Positions 26,084 through 46,340 of a DNA stretch of 64,000 nucleotides are shown piece after piece. Source of the stretch: Salipiger profundus (GTDB lineage Bacteria; Pseudomonadota; Alphaproteobacteria; Rhodobacterales; Rhodobacteraceae); NCBI RefSeq assembly GCF_001969385.1, contig NZ_CP014796.1, positions 1 through 64,000 of the forward strand, given 5' to 3'. Numbering within the stretch: the first letter of the stretch is position 1; each line of letters opens with the position of its first letter. The translations under genes were made by a program, and so were the position numbers. The notes under the pieces are model-generated. The model was not told the DNA's origin, ran no database searches, and saw nothing but the letters and a program-made list of their open reading frames with translations.

Positions 26084-26776
26084 ATGGATACGCCAATGGA
26101 ATTCATCCGCTGCATCGAGCAACGCTTGGAGGAACTCGACCTAAGACCGTCGAGCGCCGAGCAACGCTTTGACCTGCCTGCGGACACAATCCGCAACGTT
26201 TTGAGAAGCGCTGCGAACAAGGACCGAAAAAATGCAGGACCGACTCTTTCGAAGGTCAAAGAGATCTGCGATGCGCTAGGCCTCGAGCTCTACTTCGGCC
26301 CCCCGCGCAGCGTACCTGAGGACGTGACTGCTGACCGCGAGCGCTTCGCTACCGTCGCAAGATACGCCGCGAGCGCGGCTGCTGGGGGAGGAACGATCAA
26401 CCTAGACGCTGAGCCAGTCGATCACCTCGCTTTTTCAAGGGATTGGCTCATAAAAGGGGGCATTCAGCCGGAACACTGCATCCTGATCACCGCGCGCGGC
26501 GACAGCATGGCCCCAGCGATCTCAGACGGCGACCTGGTGATGATTGATCGACGCAAGACCGAGATCCAGTCGGGCAAGGTCTACGTCTACAACGACCCGA
26601 CCGACGGCACCCGCGTGAAGCGGCTTGAGGTCATTCCTGGTTCAGCGGTCATCGTGCGCAGCGACAGCCACGATCAGAAGAGCTTTCCACCGGAGTTCCA
26701 CACCGGCGATGCGATGAACACCATCTCACAAAATGTGCTGGGCGAGGTGATCTGGTCCGGCCATACTTGGAAGTAA
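26084..26776 (+). CDS. S24-family phage repressor (LexA/CI-like)
   Basis: A 230-residue repressor transcribed away from the early operon. The N-terminal part (residues about 5-75) is an HTH domain (QRFDLPADTIRNVLRSAA). The C-terminal S24 peptidase domain has ARGDSMAPAISDGD with Ser141 and GKVYVYN with Lys165, the catalytic dyad. It therefore should self-cleave with activated RecA and be inducible by DNA damage, unlike Mu c. The operators next to it are its probable targets. Confidence 0.9.
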   Translation: MDTPMEFIRCIEQRLEELDLRPSSAEQRFDLPADTIRNVLRSAANKDRKNAGPTLSKVKEICDALGLELYFGPPRSVPEDVTADRERFATVARYAASAAAGGGTINLDAEPVDHLAFSRDWLIKGGIQPEHCILITARGDSMAPAISDGDLVMIDRRKTEIQSGKVYVYNDPTDGTRVKRLEVIPGSAVIVRSDSHDQKSFPPEFHTGDAMNTISQNVLGEVIWSGHTWK

Positions 26777-26810: not shown

Positions 26811-27416
26811 ATGCGGCATTTCACCGGACTACTTTTGGCAGCTATCGTACTTGGTCAGAGCGCTTCTGCTGGAGAGACGTTCACCCCGAATGACCATGAA
26901 ATCGCTATTATTCAGACTGCGGTCGCCCAAAGAATGCTAGACCCTGCAAGCACAATCATCTCGGAGGTTGTTGCAGCGGACGATGTAAGCGACGATGGCG
27001 TGATCACTTGGGTGTGCGGGAATGTTCGCGGCCGAAACAGCTATGGAGGCTATGCTCAACCCACGCCCTTCTTTGGCGGTCTCACTGATTCACCGAATTT
27101 TGGCCGGAGCTTCATCGTAATCTCAATCGCGGGCCCCTCTGCGAGAGAGCACCTCAACGTCCAGACCGCCTGCCAAAAATCTCTCCGCGAAGCCCGACCA
27201 TTCGGCGATGATCCGGAAGTTCAGCTGCTACTGGATCAGTTTCGTAGCCTCGACACGGCTTGCCGTAGTCAACCAACGGCTAGTCAAAATCAGGCCTGCG
27301 ACGACCGAAACACCGTTTCGGCAAAGCTTGACGACAAAGGGTGGTGCTTCGGACGAGAAGGCGAAGCTGGATACCAACATAGATGGCACCTCTGCGGCCC
27401 AGTTTCTCTTCACTGA
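26811..27416 (+). CDS. Secreted phage-cargo protein of unknown function
   Basis: A 201-residue protein with a signal peptide (residues 1-20, ending ASAGE) and six Cys in the mature part. It carries VCGNVRGRNSYGGYAQPTPFFGG, a pattern (CG.V..+NS.GGY...PF) seen in small exported proteins near phage repressors (from general knowledge). Moderate GC unlike the late genes. The start is 34 bases after the repressor stop with GGAGGTCGG upstream. It may be made in the lysogen. Confidence 0.62.
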   Translation: MRHFTGLLLAAIVLGQSASAGETFTPNDHEIAIIQTAVAQRMLDPASTIISEVVAADDVSDDGVITWVCGNVRGRNSYGGYAQPTPFFGGLTDSPNFGRSFIVISIAGPSAREHLNVQTACQKSLREARPFGDDPEVQLLLDQFRSLDTACRSQPTASQNQACDDRNTVSAKLDDKGWCFGREGEAGYQHRWHLCGPVSLH

Positions 27417-27627: not shown

Positions 27628-29052
27628 CTATTCGTCTTGAGATGAACCGTCGGCCGGTGCAGGTTGCGTTTCGACAGCAGTGGAAGTGGAACTCTCGAAA
27701 TTGACAGGGAACAGACCAGCCGCCGCAAGCACGATGCAGGCCAAGCTGATAGAAAATACTGCGCTGAGGCCCAGCACCCCCCACACCTTGCACTGAACCT
27801 GCTTGAGAGGCCTCGTGTAAAGGTTGCGGAAATCATCGTCGTGCACAAAATGGTAGAGACGTTTTCGAACCGGCCCGCTCTCCTTGGCGACTGCGCCGAA
27901 AACGCCGGAAATATTCAGGAGGTTCACGGAAAAGCTCACAACCAGGTAGGCGATCACGGCTAAGGCAGCATACTCGGGTATTTTGGTCGACATGCGTAGA
28001 ACGATGAAGCCGGCGCCAATCGCGGTATCGCGCCAGATCGCACTCTGCATCGCAGATATTAAGTTACTCATCTTACTTGCATCGTCGGAAAGCGCCTTCC
28101 GCAGAGTTCCCATCTGTTCGAGTGCGTCAGATCCGAGCTCATGAAGATGGATTGAGTAAGCAGCTTTGGCGTTACTCAATGCGAACTCCAGCCGGCTTCT
28201 AAGTCCGGTGAACCAAGGTAGCTGAGGCTCCCACTCCCTTGCCAATTCTGAAGCAAGGAGGCCGTGACGCAGGTCTGCATCCTTCTCACTTGTGAAAACC
28301 CACTCAGATGCTGACGCAAGTGGCCGAAGGAGCTGGAGGGTGGAGGCAACGTCGTCGGGAAGTTCGGCACTTAATTTTTGTGCTCGCGCACCTCTAATAT
28401 ACACCTCCAGCTCCCCGGCGGAGTTCTGCTGCAGCTCTGGAGCCAAGGCTCTGCCAAGCTGTGATGCGAACAGGGTGCCGAAGCAGGGTGGGATAGTGTC
28501 CAGATCCGTGTCCCTCGGTATCCACGCCAAAGCATTGTTCGGACAGATCAAGGTACTCGAAAGCTTGACGATGCGGCGTGGGCTGGTTCCCTCGGGCGGA
28601 GCTTTCCGCTGGCCACAAACAAGCGGCCGCTCCTGATCCCAAGGAGCGAACTCACAGCAGATCGTTCTGAACTTCGCCTCCAGCTCGGCAATCAGGAACT
28701 CGCGAGTGGCTTCAAACCTATCCGTGTGTAGCCCACTCCACTCACATGCGGAGCTCAACGAGAAAAAGGCACGTACACCCGGCGGAAGATCAGGCTTTTT
28801 CACGATCAGAGTTCGGCTTGCACCGACTAGACCAGGATCACCAAGGTGGTTCGCTTCGTCAAAATCTTCAGTGCTGCTCGCTGCCCAACGAAGCTCGGCT
28901 CCTAGCTCTCGGATCGCGGTATTAAATCGCTCGATCGCGTTGAAAGCGGCCTGATCGACTTCAAGCTCCATGCGCAACACACTTTCATCCTCGCGGCACG
29001 TTGCCTTGAAGCTTGAAAGATGTTGAAAGGTCTGTCTGACATCAGTCAACAT
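27628..29052 (-). CDS. Membrane-anchored cargo protein paired with NA37-like gene
   Basis: A 474-residue protein of unknown family. Residues 1-330 look soluble and mixed alpha/beta. Then come about three membrane segments (near 345-360, 368-392 and 430-452, the last VFSISLACIVLAAAGLFPV) and a short polar tail. It overlaps the upstream NA37-like gene by 11 bases, so the two are probably co-translated. GC is clearly below that of the phage structural genes. A large cytosolic sensor-like part plus membrane segments is a common effector layout in two-gene phage-defence systems, but no known effector domain is recognised. Confidence 0.65.
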   Translation of the reverse strand: MLTDVRQTFQHLSSFKATCREDESVLRMELEVDQAAFNAIERFNTAIRELGAELRWAASSTEDFDEANHLGDPGLVGASRTLIVKKPDLPPGVRAFFSLSSACEWSGLHTDRFEATREFLIAELEAKFRTICCEFAPWDQERPLVCGQRKAPPEGTSPRRIVKLSSTLICPNNALAWIPRDTDLDTIPPCFGTLFASQLGRALAPELQQNSAGELEVYIRGARAQKLSAELPDDVASTLQLLRPLASASEWVFTSEKDADLRHGLLASELAREWEPQLPWFTGLRSRLEFALSNAKAAYSIHLHELGSDALEQMGTLRKALSDDASKMSNLISAMQSAIWRDTAIGAGFIVLRMSTKIPEYAALAVIAYLVVSFSVNLLNISGVFGAVAKESGPVRKRLYHFVHDDDFRNLYTRPLKQVQCKVWGVLGLSAVFSISLACIVLAAAGLFPVNFESSTSTAVETQPAPADGSSQDE

Positions 29053-30094
29053 CGCGTTGGAAAATTTCGCCAGATGTCACGACGGTTATGCGCTGGTTGC
29101 CGTTCGGATCCTTAGAGACCTCAACTCGGCCAGAGTCCATATCTTGCTGCGAGTAATTCACAGTGATCCCTTCCTCTGTCCGCAGGGTGCGCCGTGACGG
29201 GCGGCGCAGCTTGCCTTTCGAAAGCTTGGTGGTTTCGTCAGCGACGTGCTCCTTGCGGAGCGCATCAGAGACCATGCCCAACAGCGCTTCGTTCTTTGTT
29301 TCACGCGGCATCAACCGGCTTAGAAACGCGGCCCGGCCCGCCTCGTCGCCCAAGTCTACCTCTTCCCTACCCTCGACGATATCGAAAAAATTTGTCTTCC
29401 AGGAACGATGTGTCTCCTCATCAGCCTGAACATCTGGCCGGTTGAAGGTATTCTTCAACGCTTTATGAATGGCCTCAGTAGCTTCTTCTTCCGTGAAGTA
29501 GGGCGACACGTGCAGCCAGTTGCGCACGAAGCCAGCAACGTTTCGATTACTTCTATCGTGAATGTAGATGCTGTCTTCGGCAGAAAGGCCCCAGAACAAA
29601 ATCGACTTCTGGAGCGCCTTGTCGTCTTCGACGATAGTGTGCTCGACACCTTTAATGTGAGCGACACGTTTTTCTTCACCCTCGCCACGGACGTTGAACT
29701 GCAACACATTCATCTCATCATACTTGTTGAGGAGATAGTGGCTCCGGCCGTTGACCGTCACATTGGCGAACAGGAGAATGCCAGGCGCGGCATTTCCCCT
29801 GTGCATGTCATGGAACTCAGCCGCAAGAACCTTTGAGGCATCGAGGAAGCTGATGGCATCGTCGACTTCCTGGTCAATCCGCGACAACAACCCATGCAGA
29901 CCAGCTGTTGCATTCCATTTGAACTTCTTGCCTCTGGCAGCCGATGTAAGCAGTTGGCGGAACGTTCCAACGTGTTCATCTGGGACGACGACTTCGTCGA
30001 AAAGAGTAGGCTCTTCGGCTCCACCAACAACGTGGAAAATCATCTGAGAGACCTGAAGTGTACTCAACTCATCCGGGGAAAAAATCGCTGCCAT
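29042..30094 (-). CDS. NA37/YejK-like nucleoid-associated protein in phage cargo
   Basis: A 350-residue protein. The pattern resembles the 37-kDa nucleoid-associated family: QMIFHVVGG near the start, a central APGILLFANVTVNGRSHYLLNKYDE strand-rich core, and a final GITVNYSQQDMDSGRVEV segment like the family's C-terminal GLTINFD region. Family proteins bind the nucleoid; phage forms are uncharacterised. The ATG at 30094 has GGAG upstream. First gene of the pair with 27,628-29,052, in the cargo slot next to the phage end. Family call is by pattern only. Confidence 0.55.
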   Translation of the reverse strand: MAAIFSPDELSTLQVSQMIFHVVGGAEEPTLFDEVVVPDEHVGTFRQLLTSAARGKKFKWNATAGLHGLLSRIDQEVDDAISFLDASKVLAAEFHDMHRGNAAPGILLFANVTVNGRSHYLLNKYDEMNVLQFNVRGEGEEKRVAHIKGVEHTIVEDDKALQKSILFWGLSAEDSIYIHDRSNRNVAGFVRNWLHVSPYFTEEEATEAIHKALKNTFNRPDVQADEETHRSWKTNFFDIVEGREEVDLGDEAGRAAFLSRLMPRETKNEALLGMVSDALRKEHVADETTKLSKGKLRRPSRRTLRTEEGITVNYSQQDMDSGRVEVSKDPNGNQRITVVTSGEIFQRDVD

Positions 30095-30638
30095 ACTCGC
30101 TCCACCTGAAATTCCCGGCCATTTCGCAAAGATTCGCGCCGTAGAGTCAATGTGTCCCTTGGCGCCATTGCACCGAGCACCAGCGCAGCAACTGAACGGC
30201 GATCAAATATCTAGGGGGGTCGGAGTACAAATCGGGTCCCACTTGGCGGTGCCTTTGATACAGGCACATCCCGACCCATGTGTCTGTTTCTCTTGAGGTA
30301 ATCACTAAGTGGGACGGGTCGGCGTCCACTGGGTGCGGCCCGTCCCACTTCCGAGGTAGGCCGGAGGCCTCAAAAGCCCTCAGAATGACCCATTGAAAGC
30401 GTCGTTGAACGCTTATTCACAAGGCCTTGCGCGATTTCGTACCGGCTGCGCTGTATCAAAGCGCAGACGCGCCGAAACGCCTCCTGCGGCCACTTTCACG
30501 GCCTACTGCAAAACACGCCTGTTTCTGCAAAGCTCTCGGCGCCACCCCATCAACGCCTTGATTTTACGGCCTTCCGGCTTCCTCCGAGAACCTCGGGCCT
30601 CTTCCGGTATCCACTGTAAGAATGAGTGTCACCCAACA
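30095..30638 (-). other. Prophage 1 repressor-side terminus and end region
   Basis: A non-coding stretch between the cargo pair and the phage end. Bases about 30,255-30,638 are homologous to 52,630-53,002, and the match stops exactly at CA (30,637-30,638). It holds three copies of AAGTGGGAC or its complement (30,236; 30,307; 30,342), an inverted repeat (30,260-30,287), and TTRCAGTR-type motifs near the tip. Read inward from the end it begins TGTTGGGTGACAC, matching the opposite-end type TGTAGCGTGACAG. No gene is seen. Confidence 0.75.
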
Positions 30639-31914: not shown

Positions 31915-33623
31915 TGGGAGGCCTCCATGAAGTCGATGTAGTCCTTGATGATCTCGGCCACGACGCCGTAGCCCGTATTGTTCAGGTGCGTGCTGTCGGC
32001 GCGCAGGCTGGTCGGGATCACGTCGTTGGCGATGTCGGTCAGGTCTTGCGCGGTCGGCGTGATCCCTGCTCGGGCCAGGCCCTGCTCGATCAGCATCTTG
32101 CGGATCGGGATGACGTTCTTCGGGAACCGCTGCATGAGCGCGGCATTGAAGGCCACGATGTTGGTGTGCGCGGCGGTGCCAGAGGTCTCGGCGGCGTTGT
32201 TCAGCACATCGAGCAGGAGGAAGCGCTTCTGCGTCGTCGGGATCGCTTCGACCATGCGCTCGTAGCGCGCCAGGAGAGCGGTTCCGTCGTTGCTCGACCA
32301 GCCGTCGTTCCGGCCCAGCCACATGAGCCAGATGCGGAGCCAGACTGCGCTGACGTCCGGGACAAAGTAGTCCGTTGCCAGGACAGCCTTGGCAGTGCCG
32401 CTGGTGGTCCGTGTGAACGACGATGCGGACAGGGTGCCGTGAATGCCCCCGATCCAGCCCGGCCACGACTTCGAACCGCCGGCATAGTAGGTGATGTTGG
32501 GCGTGATACTGTTGACCGTGACCGCCCCGCTCGCCGGGATCTCGGCGCCGTCCACCTCGACCAGCACGGCCTCGGCACCGAAGCGCCCCGCGATCTGGTC
32601 GGACGACTGCCCGCCGACGCCCCGGTTCGCTGTCGCGCGCGCGTCCGAGTAGAGATCGGACAGCTGCGCCGGCCACGAGAAGCTGGTGGAAGACGCGCCG
32701 GATCCTTCCGTCAGGCTGTCGCCGATGCAGAGAAACCCGGTGTTTTGGGCCTGGCGGGCTTCAAGCGTGTCAAACTGCGTCTGAAGCGTCCCGTCGATTG
32801 CATCGGTGACATCCACGTCGCCGAAGTAGATACGGCCGGCGTTGTCGACCCAGAGGCTGCGTTTACCATCTTCATGGACAATGGCCCAAGCGGCGCCAGA
32901 GCGCTCATACCCCTCACCGTCGAACTTGCTGTCCAGCGCAGCGAACTCGGCGTTGGACGGCACATCCAGATTGCCTCTGGCGACTTCCGGATCACCGAGG
33001 TCGGAGAGGTTGTTGCTCGCCTCGAGCTTGCCGCCGATTTGACTGTTCACGTAGTCCAGCACGGACTGCGCATCACCGACCTTCTTCGCGCCGATGTCGT
33101 CCGTGCCCAGTATGAAGGTATCCGGGTCGGCGACAACGAACTTCCAAGTCTCGCCGCCGTAGGTCACGCCGCCGTTGACGAAGGTCGTCGACAGGTTGAT
33201 CTCGTCGGCGGCGTCCATCTCGGCGACGCGCGACCAGGCGCCAGAGGAGGTGTCATAAACACCGTTCAGGGACTTGTCCGTCTTCCCGATCACAGCCACC
33301 CGCGATGTACTGGTGAGCGTGCCGTCGATGGTCTGCTCGCCGGAGAGCGTGATGTCGCTGTCGGCGAGCAGATCGACCGGGTCCATCCAGACCGCACCAG
33401 AGGTGACGATGGTCTCAAGCGACGTGACCCGATTGCCGAGCGCATCGGTCGTGGTGACATCCGCCTTGAGGCCCAACGCATCCGCGAGCGGCCCGGACGC
33501 CGCCAGCAAGGTGCCGAGGGCGCTCGTCGTCAGCAGCCCGGTCGTGCCTTCGTAATTGGCCAGAACCGCCTCGGCCCCGGCAACCTCGCCCAGTTCCGTC
33601 GTGGGAACACCACCATCGGCCAT
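31905..33623 (-). CDS. Tail fibre with SGNH/GDSL esterase domain (fibre 1)
   Basis: A 572-residue fibre. The N-terminal part is a shaft with a VGDAQSVLDYVNSQIGGK helix. The C-terminal half is an SGNH hydrolase: GDSLTEG (Ser near residue 300), GVGGQSSDQ, LMWLGRNDGW (block III, near 435), and DSTHLNNTG (Asp/His near 544). It likely deacetylates surface polysaccharide during adsorption. The ATG at 33623 follows AAGGAGAG. The same leader and ribosome site precede fibre 2 at 43,717. Confidence 0.82.
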   Translation of the reverse strand: MADGGVPTTELGEVAGAEAVLANYEGTTGLLTTSALGTLLAASGPLADALGLKADVTTTDALGNRVTSLETIVTSGAVWMDPVDLLADSDITLSGEQTIDGTLTSTSRVAVIGKTDKSLNGVYDTSSGAWSRVAEMDAADEINLSTTFVNGGVTYGGETWKFVVADPDTFILGTDDIGAKKVGDAQSVLDYVNSQIGGKLEASNNLSDLGDPEVARGNLDVPSNAEFAALDSKFDGEGYERSGAAWAIVHEDGKRSLWVDNAGRIYFGDVDVTDAIDGTLQTQFDTLEARQAQNTGFLCIGDSLTEGSGASSTSFSWPAQLSDLYSDARATANRGVGGQSSDQIAGRFGAEAVLVEVDGAEIPASGAVTVNSITPNITYYAGGSKSWPGWIGGIHGTLSASSFTRTTSGTAKAVLATDYFVPDVSAVWLRIWLMWLGRNDGWSSNDGTALLARYERMVEAIPTTQKRFLLLDVLNNAAETSGTAAHTNIVAFNAALMQRFPKNVIPIRKMLIEQGLARAGITPTAQDLTDIANDVIPTSLRADSTHLNNTGYGVVAEIIKDYIDFMEASQWL

Positions 33624-33633
33624 GCGGCTCTCC

Positions 33634-36600
33634 TTAATAAATCGTGGCAGAGAATGCGGGCGTCGGATCGCCCGCGACATTGTCAACGTTTTGCGGGACC
33701 AGGACGTAGTCCCAGGTCCCGGCCGGCGCGCAGGCGACGGTCTCGCGGTAGAGCACCACGCGGCTCACGGCGCCGTCGAAGTCGCTGCTTGCCGCCAGAT
33801 CGAGCGTGTCGTTGCCGGTGGCAGCCGTCAGTTCGAGGAAATGGGTGCCGTCGGCGTCGAGCGCGGCGGCGCTTGCCGGGGTGCCGCCGGTGAAGGACAG
33901 CGTGAGCGTGCCGGCGGTGCGTCCGGTGATCTCCACCGCGAGCCGGTAGGTCGCGCCGGCGCTGAGCGCGACCGGCTGGGTCAGCGCATCGGCGGTGCCG
34001 GCCGTGTGGCTGGCGTCGCCGCCGGCGATGGTCCAGGCGGTGCCCGTCGTCCAGGGGCCTGCGTCGTTGAAGTCGCCGCCGCCGACGAGGCTGGTCCGCG
34101 TGGCGTCGCCGTCGGTGATCGTGGTGGTGAGCCCCGGCGTCACCGGCAGGGGCGCGCCCACCGCGTCCGTCGCGGTGTCGAGCGTGTCGCCGGCGGGCAC
34201 CCGGTAGAGCTGCACGAAGGCCGTTTCGGTGTCGGTCACCGCCAGCGCGATCACCGCGTGGCCGAGCCCGCCCGTCACCGTGATCGCCTCGCTGTCGAGC
34301 GCCGCCGCCAGCGCCGCCGCGTCCGCGCCCACCGTATGGGTCACGACGGCGGTGTAGCTGCCCTCGGTCGCATCCAGCGCCACCGCCACCGCCTGCAGCT
34401 CGATGACATCGCCCCGCGCGTAGGTCTCGAGCTGCGTGCCGGCGTCGGCCGCCCAGATCAGCAGCTCGGTCCAGCTGCCCGCCCCCTGCAGCCGGTGGAA
34501 CAGGCGGTAATGCGACAGCAGCGCCGTCTCGCCCTCTCCCGGCGCGAGCCGGATGATCACGTAAGGGTCCTGCAGCGCGCCGAGCGCCTCCACGATATGG
34601 GCCGGCCCGGGATCGTCGACCCCCGTGAAGTTGTCGCTCTCGATGCCGGTGAAGCGCGGCGCCAGCGGCGGGGTGGCGCTGACGCTGATCGGATCGCCCA
34701 CGCTCGCTTCCCAGTCCGGAACGACCTCGGCATCCGCCAGGTCCTCGATCTCCGGCGCCGCCAGCTTCAGCGTCAGCCGCGCCCCGAAGCTCTTGCCCGG
34801 CTCGATGCCGGTGACGATCATCTCGTGGCTCTCCTCGCCCCGCAGCCCGAAGTGCACGGCCGCGCCCACCTCGGGCACGTCGGTGACCGACAGGAGCCGC
34901 AGGAGCCGGGTGGTGCCTTCGACGCAGGCCACGGCGGCGACCTGGGCGGCGCCGGTGCTGTCTTCGGCGTCCTCGTAGACCCGGTAACCCAGCCCGTAGG
35001 CGCTGCCGGACTCCATGGTCACCGGCGCGTCGAGCTCGACGAGCGTGCCCTCGACCCGCCGCACCCGGGCCGCGACCTGCGTGCGGCTCAGCACGTAATG
35101 CGAGACCAGCACCAGGTCGCCGCGCGTGGCGGTGCGCGCGGCCCCGTCCTGGAAGCAGGTGAAGGTGTCGGCGCGGTAGAGCGTCTCGTACATCCGCCGG
35201 CGGGTCTCGATCCAGATCTCGTTGGGATGCGTCTTGCCCGGGTGCGTCATCGCTTCGGTGAGCGAGATCGGCCCCGCGTAATCCGGCCAGCGAATGATCC
35301 GCTCCGCCTCCGCCCAGTCGTCGGTCTCGTCGTTGAACTTGACCCGCACCGCATGCGGCGGGTCGAGGTAGTCGCGGCGCCAGCGGAAGTCCGAGCAGGT
35401 GCGCGGCGAGAGATGGTCGATGGCCTGGTCGCGCCTGCGGTCGATGACCACCGTCCAGCGGATCCCGTCGTGGCGCGGTGCGGCTCGCCCGGCGCCGGCG
35501 ATCGCCTGCAGCATCTCGCCCAGCGTCTCGCCCTGCTCGTGGATGCGATCGTAGCGCAGCCCCTTCGCGGCGCAGAAGGCGTGCCAGTCCTGCAGGGTCT
35601 CCCAGTCGATCTCGGCGTCGGTGGCCGGATAGGGATTGCAGGGCCCCTTCAACGTGGCAATGAACGCCGAGGCCGGGTTGCGCGGCAGCCCCTCCACCCA
35701 CGCCTCGCCATCCCAGTCGTCGGCATGGCGCTCCACGATGCCGTTGAGAGTGTCGAGCTGGCCGTTCAGCTGGTAGGTCGCCCGGATCCGGATCGCGGTC
35801 AGCGCCAGCGGCTTGTCGAAGTTCAGCGGATACTCGGGCCGGATCGACTGCAGCGCCGCCAGCATGACCTTGTCGAAGTAGCGCCGGTTCGTGCGCTCCT
35901 GCGTCATCCGGGTGATCTCGATCTGCCAGCGCCCGCGCGAGGGCAGCTGCCAGGCGAACTGGCGAAAGAACGGATCGGATCGCTTCGCCACCAGCCGCAG
36001 CGTCGTCACCTCCTCCCACTCGTCCGCATCCGAGAGCCGCTGGCGAATCCGCACGTCGACGCGCAGGCTCTTCTCCCTGTCGCCCTCCCGGTTGAGCCGG
36101 TAGAGCCCCGTCGGGAACCAAAGGATCACCGACGCGATCTGCGTCACGCTGGCGGTGGTGCGCACCACCGGGGTCTCGATCGCCGCGCCCGAGGTCACCT
36201 CGCCGGTGTCGTCGCGCGGCAGTGGGCGGACCAGCTCGACGCTCTCGGCGTCCTCGATCACCTGCCGGGGATAGAGCGAGACCGGGTCGTCGCCGGCGAC
36301 GCCCTCTCGGTGCTCGATCTCCACCTCGTCGTAGTCGTCGATCGAGGTCTCGCCGATCCGCAGGTCGGAGATCTTCAGCCGCCCGTAGCCCCAGACGAAG
36401 AGCGCCACGACGAACTGCTCGTCGCCGATGATCTGGGTGTAGGAGCGCGCGGCGAAGGGCGGCGCGTAGCGATGGCGGCCGAGCGGCCAGGGCACCGGCT
36501 CGTCGGGGCGCAGCTCGTTGGTCCAGCCGCTGAGCGTGTAGCGGTTCTTGCGCTCCTTCTCATCGGGCGTGACCGGCGGAATGAGGCTGCCCACCAGCGC

Positions 36601-43400: not shown

Positions 43401-43717
43401 TCCACCGTTGCACCGTCATAGCCCGTCGCCGAGGCCGCGCTGTGCGTTCCCGTGTCGGCGTCCATGACCTCCGCGCCCACCCCATCCGTCGCGGGGGTGT
43501 AGGTCTGAAGGTCCGTCCAGGTTGCCGCCCAGATCACGTCGGATGTCACCTGCGCTGTGGCCTCGGCAATCGCGTCGGCCACCGGACCGGACCCGACCAG
43601 CTGTGTGCCAAGGACAGAGATCCGCACCCGCCCGACAGCGCCGTCGCGATGCCCCAGCAGGTCGTCCACTGCCGCCAGTTCGTCCGTGTTGATGCTCTCT
43701 ACACCGTTGTCAGCCAT
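40418..43717 (-). CDS. Tail fibre 2 with SGNH-like domain
   Basis: A 1,099-residue fibre. The N-terminal 60 residues share the style of fibre 1. An Ala/Ser-rich helical coiled region follows (near residues 440-490), then a hydrolase-like region: VIALLDSTSNQPW (possible nucleophile Ser) and, near residue 920, DATGTHWTLAG (possible His), a divergent SGNH pattern. A LamG-like or helical C-terminal cap ends it. The ATG at 43717 follows AAGGAGAG. Its receptor specificity should differ from that of fibre 1. Confidence 0.78.
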   Translation of the reverse strand: MADNGVESINTDELAAVDDLLGHRDGAVGRVRISVLGTQLVGSGPVADAIAEATAQVTSDVIWAATWTDLQTYTPATDGVGAEVMDADTGTHSAASATGYDGATVDNAGRYAWNLGWGRWVRISDTGLSAKSDVGHTHTADQISDSSAAGRALLTAEDAEAQRGALGLGSAATAASGDFIAAGMAMQGRPGAYPERYTETLTGGHAAAAVAPGTTVTTARGAVRRLAGGEVLATRERFALSPGDFYEIAWAFARSTNPTDPNGDTVRLGIQWLDEDFASVGQLTDASLDLTPTVADGRQFVTVVIGEDADVAGVDFGWPAGAVHAVPFLHPFGSDGVTDAELIEWRGGGGALASDTVVLEAGGTADAITATADRRYSDEPFATLFVMEVASANTGAVTMSIGGETAKDLLLNSGAALQADYLLPGMLLDFRWDGADYRLTTGASATAIEAAAAASAAAAALSASEADASASVAETAEAAALSAQSSAETARDQSQASSDLTIFAAAFDAAADLDGTGLSADDYVVVWADEDRENKVAIYQWNGSTFDFVRVWQGNSTRRDAVMRHLPYRIARMQAAYGFYDEEAVTGDLPVIALLDSTSNQPWTAIAPILADMVPDDTDAAIEPWIEASAGSQGLADLAVQSLSGATVATNRWDVWPTGELIEIPAGTYTVPLNIMNTWATAVFAIIGAVGGGRISASVDGAPAAADLDTSTLTENRASIWEVTNPNGNTRVELDLTITGGSVYVVHAWGERTDVNRLVRHARFRKGGTGLEDGWSEADCRANFRTVVGRINPALITYHDRANASLVETYFPLILNDIFTATSECDVLTIGGLPIFDETNGNDTGVLDQNTLLEFYADQYFENGYPSFYVNPYDSYLIDGDPERAQTASENMIGTTDWRDATGTHWTLAGSLGVYHKVARIIAAMPVARASRSLVPKVIGVNSIVRNASSTVLKFVPDGTYGLILSYFNSLKMRDANGVVRFQLGNGTISAPDVMPEEPDLGSEGSGRSMERGSLGALTIRKYLDTSEPTGYGNLGMQIAYLRPLTVAQAQAIVSSANGNDIGATAHISGASNGDKLWQLYSVSGSPTWKSVTDRTILS

Positions 43718-43727
43718 GCGGCTCTCC

Positions 43728-46215
43728 TTAGTAAATCGTGGCAGAGAATGCGGGCGTCGGATCGCCCGCGACATTGTCAACGTTTTGCGGGACCAGAACG
43801 TAGTCCCAGGTCCCGGCCGGCGCGCAGGCGGCGGTCTCGCGGTAGAGCACCACGCGGCTCACGGCGCCGTCGAAGTCGCTGCTTGCCGCCAGTTCGAGGG
43901 TGTCGTTGCCGCTGGCGGCGGTCAGCGCGAAGACGTGGGGACCGTCGGCGTCGAGCGCGGCGGCGCTCACCGGGGTGCCGCCGGTGAAGGACGGCGTGAG
44001 CGTGCCGGCGGTGCGTCCGGTGATCTCCACCGCGAGCCGGTAGGTCGCGCTGGCGCTGAGCGCGACCGGCTGGGTCAGCGCATCGGCGGTGCCGGCCGTG
44101 TGGGTGGCTTCGCCGCCGGCGATGGTCCAGGCGGTGCCCGTCGTCCAGGGGCCTGCGTCGTTGAAGTCGCCGCCGCCAACCAGGCTGGTCCGCGTGGCGT
44201 CGCCGTCGGTGATCGTGGTGGTGAGCCCCGGCGTCACCGGCAGGGGCGCGCCCACCGCGTCCGTCGCGGTGTCGAGCGTGTCGCCGGCGGGCACCCGGTA
44301 GAGCTGCACGAAGGCCGTTTCGGTGTCGGTCACCGCCAGCGCGATCACCGCGTGGCCGAGCCCGCCCGTCACCGTGATCGCCTCAGCGTCGAGCGCCGCC
44401 GCCAGCGCCGCCGCGTCCGCGCCCACCGTATGGGTCACGACGGCGGTGTAGCTGCCCTCGGTCGCGTCCAGCGCCACCGCCACCGCCTGCAGCTCGATGA
44501 CATCGCCCCGCGCGTAGGTCTCGAGCTGCGTGCCGGCATCGGCCGCCCAGATCAGCAGCTCGGTCCAGCTGCCCGCCCCCCTGCAGCCGGTGGAACAGGC
44601 GGTAATGCGACAGCAGCGCCGTCTCGCCCTCCCCCGGCGCGAGCCGGATGATCACGAAGGGATCCTCGGCCGCGATCTCGAGATGGACGTAACCGGGATC
44701 GTCGAGACCCGCGAAGTTGTCGCTCTCGATGCCGGTGAAGCGCGGCGCCAGCGGCGGGGTGGCGCTGACGCTGATCGGATCGCCCACGCTCGCTTCCCAG
44801 TCCGGAACGACCTCGGCATCCGCCAGGTCCTCGATCTCCGGCGCCGCCAGCTTCAGCGTCAGCCGCGCTCCGAAGCTCTTGCCCGGCTCGATGCCGGTGA
44901 CGATCATCTCGTGGCTCTCCTCGCCGCGCAGCCCGAAGTGCACGGCCGCGCCCACCTCCGGCACGGCGGTGACCGACAGGAGCCGCAGGAGCCGGGTGGT
45001 GCCTTCGACGCCGGCCACGGCGGCGACCTGGGCGGCGCCGGTGCTGTCCTCGGCGTCCTCGTAGACCCGGTAGCCCAGCCCGTAGGCGCTGCCGGCCTCC
45101 ATCGTCACCGGCGCGTCGAGCTCGACGAGCGTGCCCTCGACCCGGCGCACCCGGGCCGCGACCTGCGTGCGGCTCAGCACGTAATGCGAGACCAGCACCA
45201 GGTCGCCGCGCGTGGCGGTGCGCGCAGCCCCGTCCTGGAAGCAGGTGAAGGTGTCGGCGCGGTAGAGCGTCTCGTACATCCGCCGGCGGGTCTCGATCCA
45301 GATCTCGTCGGGATGCGTCTTGCCCGGGTGCGTCATCGCCTCGGTCAGCGAGATCGGCCCCGCGTAATCCGGCCAGCGGATGATCCGCTCGGCCTCCGCC
45401 CAGTCGTCGGTCTCGTCGTTGAACCTGACCCGCACCGCATGCGGCGGGTCGAGGTAGTCGCGGCACCAGCGGAAGTCCGAGCAGGTGCGCGGCGAGAGAT
45501 GGTCGATGGCCTGGTCGCGCCTGCGATCGATGACCACCGTCCAGCGGATGCCGTCGTGGCGCGGTGCCGCCCGCCCGGCGCCGGCGATCGCCTGCAGCAT
45601 CTCGCCCAGCGTCTCGCCCTGCTCGTGGATGCGATCGTAGCGCAGCCCCTTCGCCGCGCAGAAGGCGTGCCAGTCCTGCAGGGTCTCCCAGTCGATCTCG
45701 GCGTCGGTGGCCGGATAGGGATTGCAGGGCCCCTTCAACGTGGCAATGAACGCCGAGGCCAGGTTACGCGGCAGCCCCTCGACCCACGCCTCGCCATCCC
45801 AGTCGTCGGCATGGCACTCGACGATGCCGTTGAGAGTGTCGAGCTGGCCGTTCAGCTGGTAGGTCGCCCGGATGCGGATCGCGGTCAGCGCCAGCGGCTT
45901 GTCGAAGTTCAGCGGATACTCGGGCCGGATCGACTGCAGCGCCGCCAGCATGACCTTGTCGAAGTAGCGCCGGTTCGTGCGCTCCTGCGTCATCCGCGTG
46001 ATCTCGATCTGCCAGCGCCCGCGCGAGGGCAGCTGCCAGGCGAACTGGCGGAAGAACGGCTCGGTCCGCTTCGCCACCAGCCGCAGCGTCGTCACCTCCT
46101 CCCACTCGTCCGCGTCCGACAGCCGCTGGCGGATGCGCACGTCGACGCGCAGGCTCTTCTCCCTGTCGCCCTCCCGGTTGAGCCGGTAGAGCCCCGTCGG
46201 GAACCGAAGGATCAC
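43728..46215 (-). pseudogene. Tail tip protein copy 2, 5'-truncated and frameshifted
   Basis: Nearly identical to the tip gene at 33,634-36,120 but lacking its first third: the match begins at about 46,215 (LRFPTGLYRLNREGD). A run of six C (44,576-44,581) replaces five C in copy 1 (34,482-34,486) and shifts the frame, so the product splits into two overlapping frames (46,215-44,383 and 44,483-43,728). One short segment differs between copies (44,655-44,710 versus 34,565-34,625). Not functional as such. Confidence 0.85.
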
Positions 46216-46216
46216 C

Positions 46217-46340
46217 GAGCACCGCCGCGCGAACCTCGTCGGCCCGGGCGCTGGTGCGGTCGAGTCCCCGCTGGCGGATCTGCACCTCCGCCTCGTAGAG
46301 CGCGAGCAGCCGGTTGCGCACCGCCTCGGTCTGACCGATC
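46217..46340 (-). pseudogene. Tape-measure fragment
   Basis: A 124-bp piece matching the tape measure of prophage 1 at about 1,346-1,470 (QTEAVRNRLLALYEAEVQIR). On one side it joins the truncated tip gene (46,216) and on the other the IS5 remnant (46,340). It marks a deletion that removed the rest of a tape measure, the distal tail genes and the start of the tip gene. Confidence 0.8.

Follow-up and report, generated by a model that had tools for sequence, protein, structure and literature searches.

NA37 proteins bind DNA, and YejK is a nucleoid protein. A DNA-binding protein and a membrane protein are combined as temperate-phage cargo in the RexAB systems of phage lambda and of Pseudomonas putida (RexAB-pp) (PMC12894663, PMC11077077), and RexAB-pp offers an example of a membrane effector set off by a DNA-binding protein (PMC12894663). 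Kiwa (KwaA-KwaB) is likewise described, in the available part of a review, as two genes coding for a DNA-binding and an inner-membrane protein (PMC12904381). In the 2026 DefensePredictor screen of E. coli units (PMC13092281), one that contains a 'YejK nucleoid-associated domain' was validated as protective against phages; the available parts of the main text name neither the unit nor its genes, and this was the only report found in which a YejK-type domain gives protection against phages. Here two overlapping genes, A and B, are described from the first 64,000 nucleotides of contig NZ_CP014796.1 of Salipiger profundus, a stretch hereafter called the window. The two genes were almost always found together among the bacteria surveyed. 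They are rather likely to be an anti-phage (superinfection-exclusion) system that a temperate marine phage of the Mu-head type carries as cargo, separate from the genes of its lytic block.

The pair and the borders of the slot that contains it have the following window positions:

26084..26776, plus strand, phage repressor forming one border of the cargo slot (Peptidase_S24, E 6.2e-14)
27628..29052, minus strand, gene B, second of the pair, predicted membrane protein of 474 amino acids
29042..30094, minus strand, gene A, first of the pair, putative divergent NA37/YejK-type protein of 350 amino acids
29042..29052, minus strand, 11-bp overlap of the stop of A with the start of B, suggesting translational coupling
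30638, end of the record KT381864, forming the other border of the cargo slot

Both open reading frames (ORFs) and their overlap were as given in the preliminary description. The low GC content reported there was also confirmed, with 0.546 measured in the pair versus 0.682 in window 1-26000 and 0.669 in window 30700-64000. Window 9045-30638 (21,594 bp compared) was 100% identical to Thiobacimonas phage vB_ThpS-P1 (KT381864), in which the repressor at 26084-26776 is annotated as a Cro/CI regulator. Because of this identity the pair can be placed inside vB_ThpS-P1, between the repressor and position 30638, in agreement with the cargo location proposed earlier. According to the available part of the phage paper (PMC5488378), vB_ThpS-P1 is a temperate phage induced from Thiobacimonas profunda JLT2016, and its ORFs 51 and 52 are hypothetical in the paper's table. 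The sister phage vB_PeaS-P1, the record of which is labelled partial, had no pair at the corresponding place, and its regulator lies 491 bp from the record end.

Relatives of A and B were collected by tblastn, profile and degenerate-pattern searches; three protein-homologue searches yielded 2, 2 and 3 proteins. When viral contigs were searched with A, B adjoined it in all seven loci (vB_ThpS-P1 itself being one of them), and the search with B found A adjoining in 6/6, five of these contigs repeating the first set. In genomes searched with B, A adjoined in 31 of 31 loci, being split in two frames in one of them (L049), and in Pseudomonas in 22 of 22, some copies being damaged. Eight plasmid records were found with A. 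B followed A directly in the six that were opened; in the other two, the search with B gave a match adjoining A. The genes overlapped, with longest-ORF starts, in 46 of 47 pairs, the lone exception having a damaged A; 12 loci (window copies, duplicate viral contigs, L020, L021 and L058) had been dropped before this count. Pairwise distances of A and of B were correlated (r 0.894, 30 non-redundant pairs, with L049 dropped here and from the tree), none of 5000 permutations reaching as high a value, although this correlation is partly due to shared descent of whole elements. Thus A and B form an almost obligate overlapping operon, a real unit, and the adjacency anticipated in the preliminary description is conserved.

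Damaged copies of the pair were seen in L049, L063, L138 and L139, and in Sinorhizobium an intact A was followed by a broken B. Such copies suggest that the pair is gained and lost.

The protein A of the window had no Pfam match when searched alone, and an NCBIfam scan likewise gave nothing useful. At the level of the family, PF04245 was matched by 24 of 30 A relatives at E 0.01 (best 7.9e-21, many above the curated cut-off) and the NCBIfam YejK model by 5 of 30 (best E 5.2e-5), so that the NA37 resemblance noted before held by profile for the family and failed for the single protein. The A family aligned with the NA37 profile over 283 columns (E 3.1e-6), and for the AlphaFold2 model of A the YejK structure 9be2 was the only significant PDB match among the best 50 rows, which bore out the resemblance by structure prediction. 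A is accordingly modelled as a divergent NA37/YejK protein, its predicted fold agreeing with theirs from end to end. It shares this fold and the profile-level alignment with NA37/YejK proteins, but differs from them in having a membrane partner, in sitting on mobile elements and in forming its own branch, which was separated in the tree from chromosomal YejK with a support of 88/92, below the starred level. Two YejK rows of the tree, can_L075 and par_L083, had very long branches, probably because the wrong reading frame was chosen for them; the 18 rows of the profile comparison of A with YejK also included can_L075. Most Pseudomonas carriers have an ordinary YejK as well. Further NA37 paralogues, besides the chromosomal YejK, were seen in G753:C113 and G771:C22 (147-169 bits, middle score). 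The GenBank start of gene A in KT381864 (752-1597 in locus L002) is 69 codons late, giving 281 amino acids and losing the conserved N-terminal part.

The predicted structure of B consists of an alpha/beta part (about residues 1-253), a helix of 76 residues (280-355) and two more helices (360-399 and 405-444). Mean hydropathy of the family had three peaks, at residues 334-352, 361-379 and 429-447; in the B of the window alone only the peaks at 361-379 and 429-447 were above the stricter single-sequence threshold. The three C-terminal membrane segments first proposed are therefore seen in the family mean, and two of them in the protein itself. The prediction for B is a large soluble domain linked by a long, strongly conserved helix to three transmembrane segments that anchor the protein in the membrane. 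No Pfam family was common to most members, there was no PADLOC match, and the model matched no PDB fold at E 0.001; a VIA structure look at B gave just general three-helix and ferredoxin-like arrangements.

The pair resembles RexAB in being temperate-phage cargo with a DNA-binding-type and a membrane protein, and Kiwa in consisting of two genes for such proteins. By sequence profile, lambda RexA was rejected as a relative of A (hhalign with a 46-sequence A profile: probability 0.1, E 0.48, 38 columns), and no RexA or RdgC entry was among the best 50 rows of each structure search with the A model. Lambda RexB was likewise rejected by profile as a relative of B (hhalign: probability 0.2, 14 columns); it has 144 amino acids, whereas B has 474 with a large soluble domain. 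Neither A nor B matched any family of PADLOC at E 0.1, a database that includes Kiwa models. On these sequence comparisons the pair is neither RexAB nor Kiwa, though both have a similar plan. The earlier statement that no described system has this pair is not quite right, given the YejK-domain unit of DefensePredictor and the DNA-binding and membrane defence pairs already described, even if A and B do not match RexAB and Kiwa in sequence. Since E. coli carries copies of A and B, the DefensePredictor unit may be a member of this family. No paper on NA37 with such a membrane partner was found among open-licence papers, taken without supplements. Other NA37 proteins on mobile elements are NdpA2 of PAPI-1, which belongs to the YejK family and acts with TprA on transfer genes of this integrative and conjugative element (ICE; available part of PMC8565334), and the NdpA/YejK proteins encoded by two P. 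protegens phages (available part of PMC10305613).

The distribution of the pair is sporadic, on prophages, plasmids and islands. The search with A matched 2 of 385 genomes of the class and 6 of 398 of the phylum, the source genome being counted in both. Two of the six phylum matches (L020 and L021, about 25 bits) were set aside as ordinary NA37 because no B lay beside them. The pair was present in 22 of 298 Pseudomonas genomes, on Rhizobium plasmids and on the IncC plasmid pKAZ5, near an integrase on Pantoea plasmids, and on a Methylocystis plasmid close to a gene whose annotation reads phospholipase D-like anti-phage protein. In two of 5426 E. coli genomes it was part of a tRNA-Leu island composed of an integrase, A, B, a retron-type HNH gene and an N-6 methylase; most other matches listed for this island fall on its integrase part. 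A second E. coli form was found in 32 further genomes of the 5426 by partial blastn match (54% of the query among the matches listed), and ten listed matches all overlapped a 'nucleoid-associated protein' and a hypothetical protein. The two copies of this form that were opened matched both the A and B profiles, and both were in Rac-type prophages, reversed, between the antiterminator Q and the late genes and 5.3-5.5 kb from sieB.

The largest gene within 5 kb matched PADLOC (E 1e-10) at 7 of 17 pair loci, compared with 1 of 10 control regions. The controls were regions of the same contigs, 10 of the 17 being scanned singly, and L024 and L035, which have short ORFs, were left out of the neighbour comparison together with their controls. 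The matching neighbours, with the loci in which they lie beside the pair, included:

L043 and L047, Septu
L038, HamB-like
L026, type IIG restriction
L028, NERD-UvrD

The remaining two of the seven were a GajB-like helicase and a partial PbeA. Counted as PADLOC models, 244 were matched among 147 neighbours of 17 loci and 46 among 148 control proteins of 17 regions, but this exaggerates the enrichment, because one Septu or helicase protein is counted under dozens of models, and the count by locus is the fairer one. The trend fits defence, and the vicinity of defence genes suggested before was seen for some copies, near Septu, Hachiman-like, restriction or retron-type genes. Both an NA37 match and adjacent homologues were found, so neither of the two results named beforehand as refuting was seen.

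That the pair serves defence or exclusion in some form is likely. In the preferred mechanism, A would bind DNA in the cytoplasm, recognise a state of the DNA or of the replication complex created by an invading phage, and pass a signal to the soluble domain of B; the conserved helix and membrane part of B would open or disturb the membrane, and growth would stop before the intruder matures. This direction, with A sensing and B acting, is put forward tentatively, at slightly short of an even chance. Several observations weigh against the defence reading as a whole. A shared fold is no proof of function, both the binding of A to DNA and an A-B contact are putative, and no experiment with these two genes was found. 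Pfam and PDB fold searches with B revealed no pore or effector domain of a known kind. A Klebsiella plasmid (L061, 8013-8969) has a truncated B without A, adjoining IS26, and an Enterobacter record has the same match. The defence enrichment at the level of loci is modest and the sample small, several Pseudomonas loci share one site, and among the controls there were also two mad2 matches and one methyltransferase match each of type I and type II.

The order of events may also be the opposite one: B would sense the entry of a phage at the membrane, and A would be the effector, coating incoming DNA and blocking its replication or transcription. NA37 DNA binding would suit such a role. Kiwa itself works so, according to the available part of PMC12904381, and the KwaB entries 9mrx, 9mtn and 9nyu were listed for the A model, with residues 1-194 of A in register with 3-196 of KwaB; this order is nevertheless considered unlikely, if a serious alternative. 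A toxin-antitoxin-like or addiction unit stabilising its carrier is improbable: the occurrence on plasmids, islands and prophages and the two overlapping genes would fit, but both proteins are large, neither matches a Pfam antitoxin family, and the truncated B of the Klebsiella plasmid persists without A, though it is possibly dead. NdpA2 offers a precedent for A controlling the genes of its own element, with B as an accessory (PMC8565334, available part); its partner TprA, however, is a ribbon-helix-helix DNA-binding protein and no membrane protein (same source), and A and B occur in unrelated elements, which makes such control very improbable. A DNA-binding-type fold with a nearly obligate membrane partner could be a nucleoid-membrane tether for segregation or copy control, but the pair is also found in chromosomal prophages and islands, which need no partition, and this role is scarcely credible.

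Under the defence reading, A and B are probably a variant of the known DNA-binder-plus-membrane type of phage defence, and would be a third arrangement of such proteins beside RexAB and Kiwa. A more far-reaching idea, considered doubtful, is that a YejK housekeeping fold has come to read DNA for an immune system coupled to the membrane, in which B is a new type of membrane effector, the NA37-B pair and Kiwa perhaps being distant branches of one class and RexAB convergent. A family of mobile elements' proteins in which a YejK-type fold goes with a single membrane partner provides a direct way to ask about DNA reading by this fold, and the E. coli prophage copies make the pair testable in a standard strain.

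Between the repressor and the pair, an ORF of 201 amino acids (window 26811-27416, GC 0.55, no Pfam match) may be further cargo. Beyond gene A, towards the end of the phage, window 30230-30350 contains several GTCCCACTT / AAGTGGGAC repeats, possibly transposase or repressor sites. Alignment of the prophage locus L008 to the window also revealed a 2.5-kb direct repeat, 96% identical, at 33616-36132 and 43710-46218.
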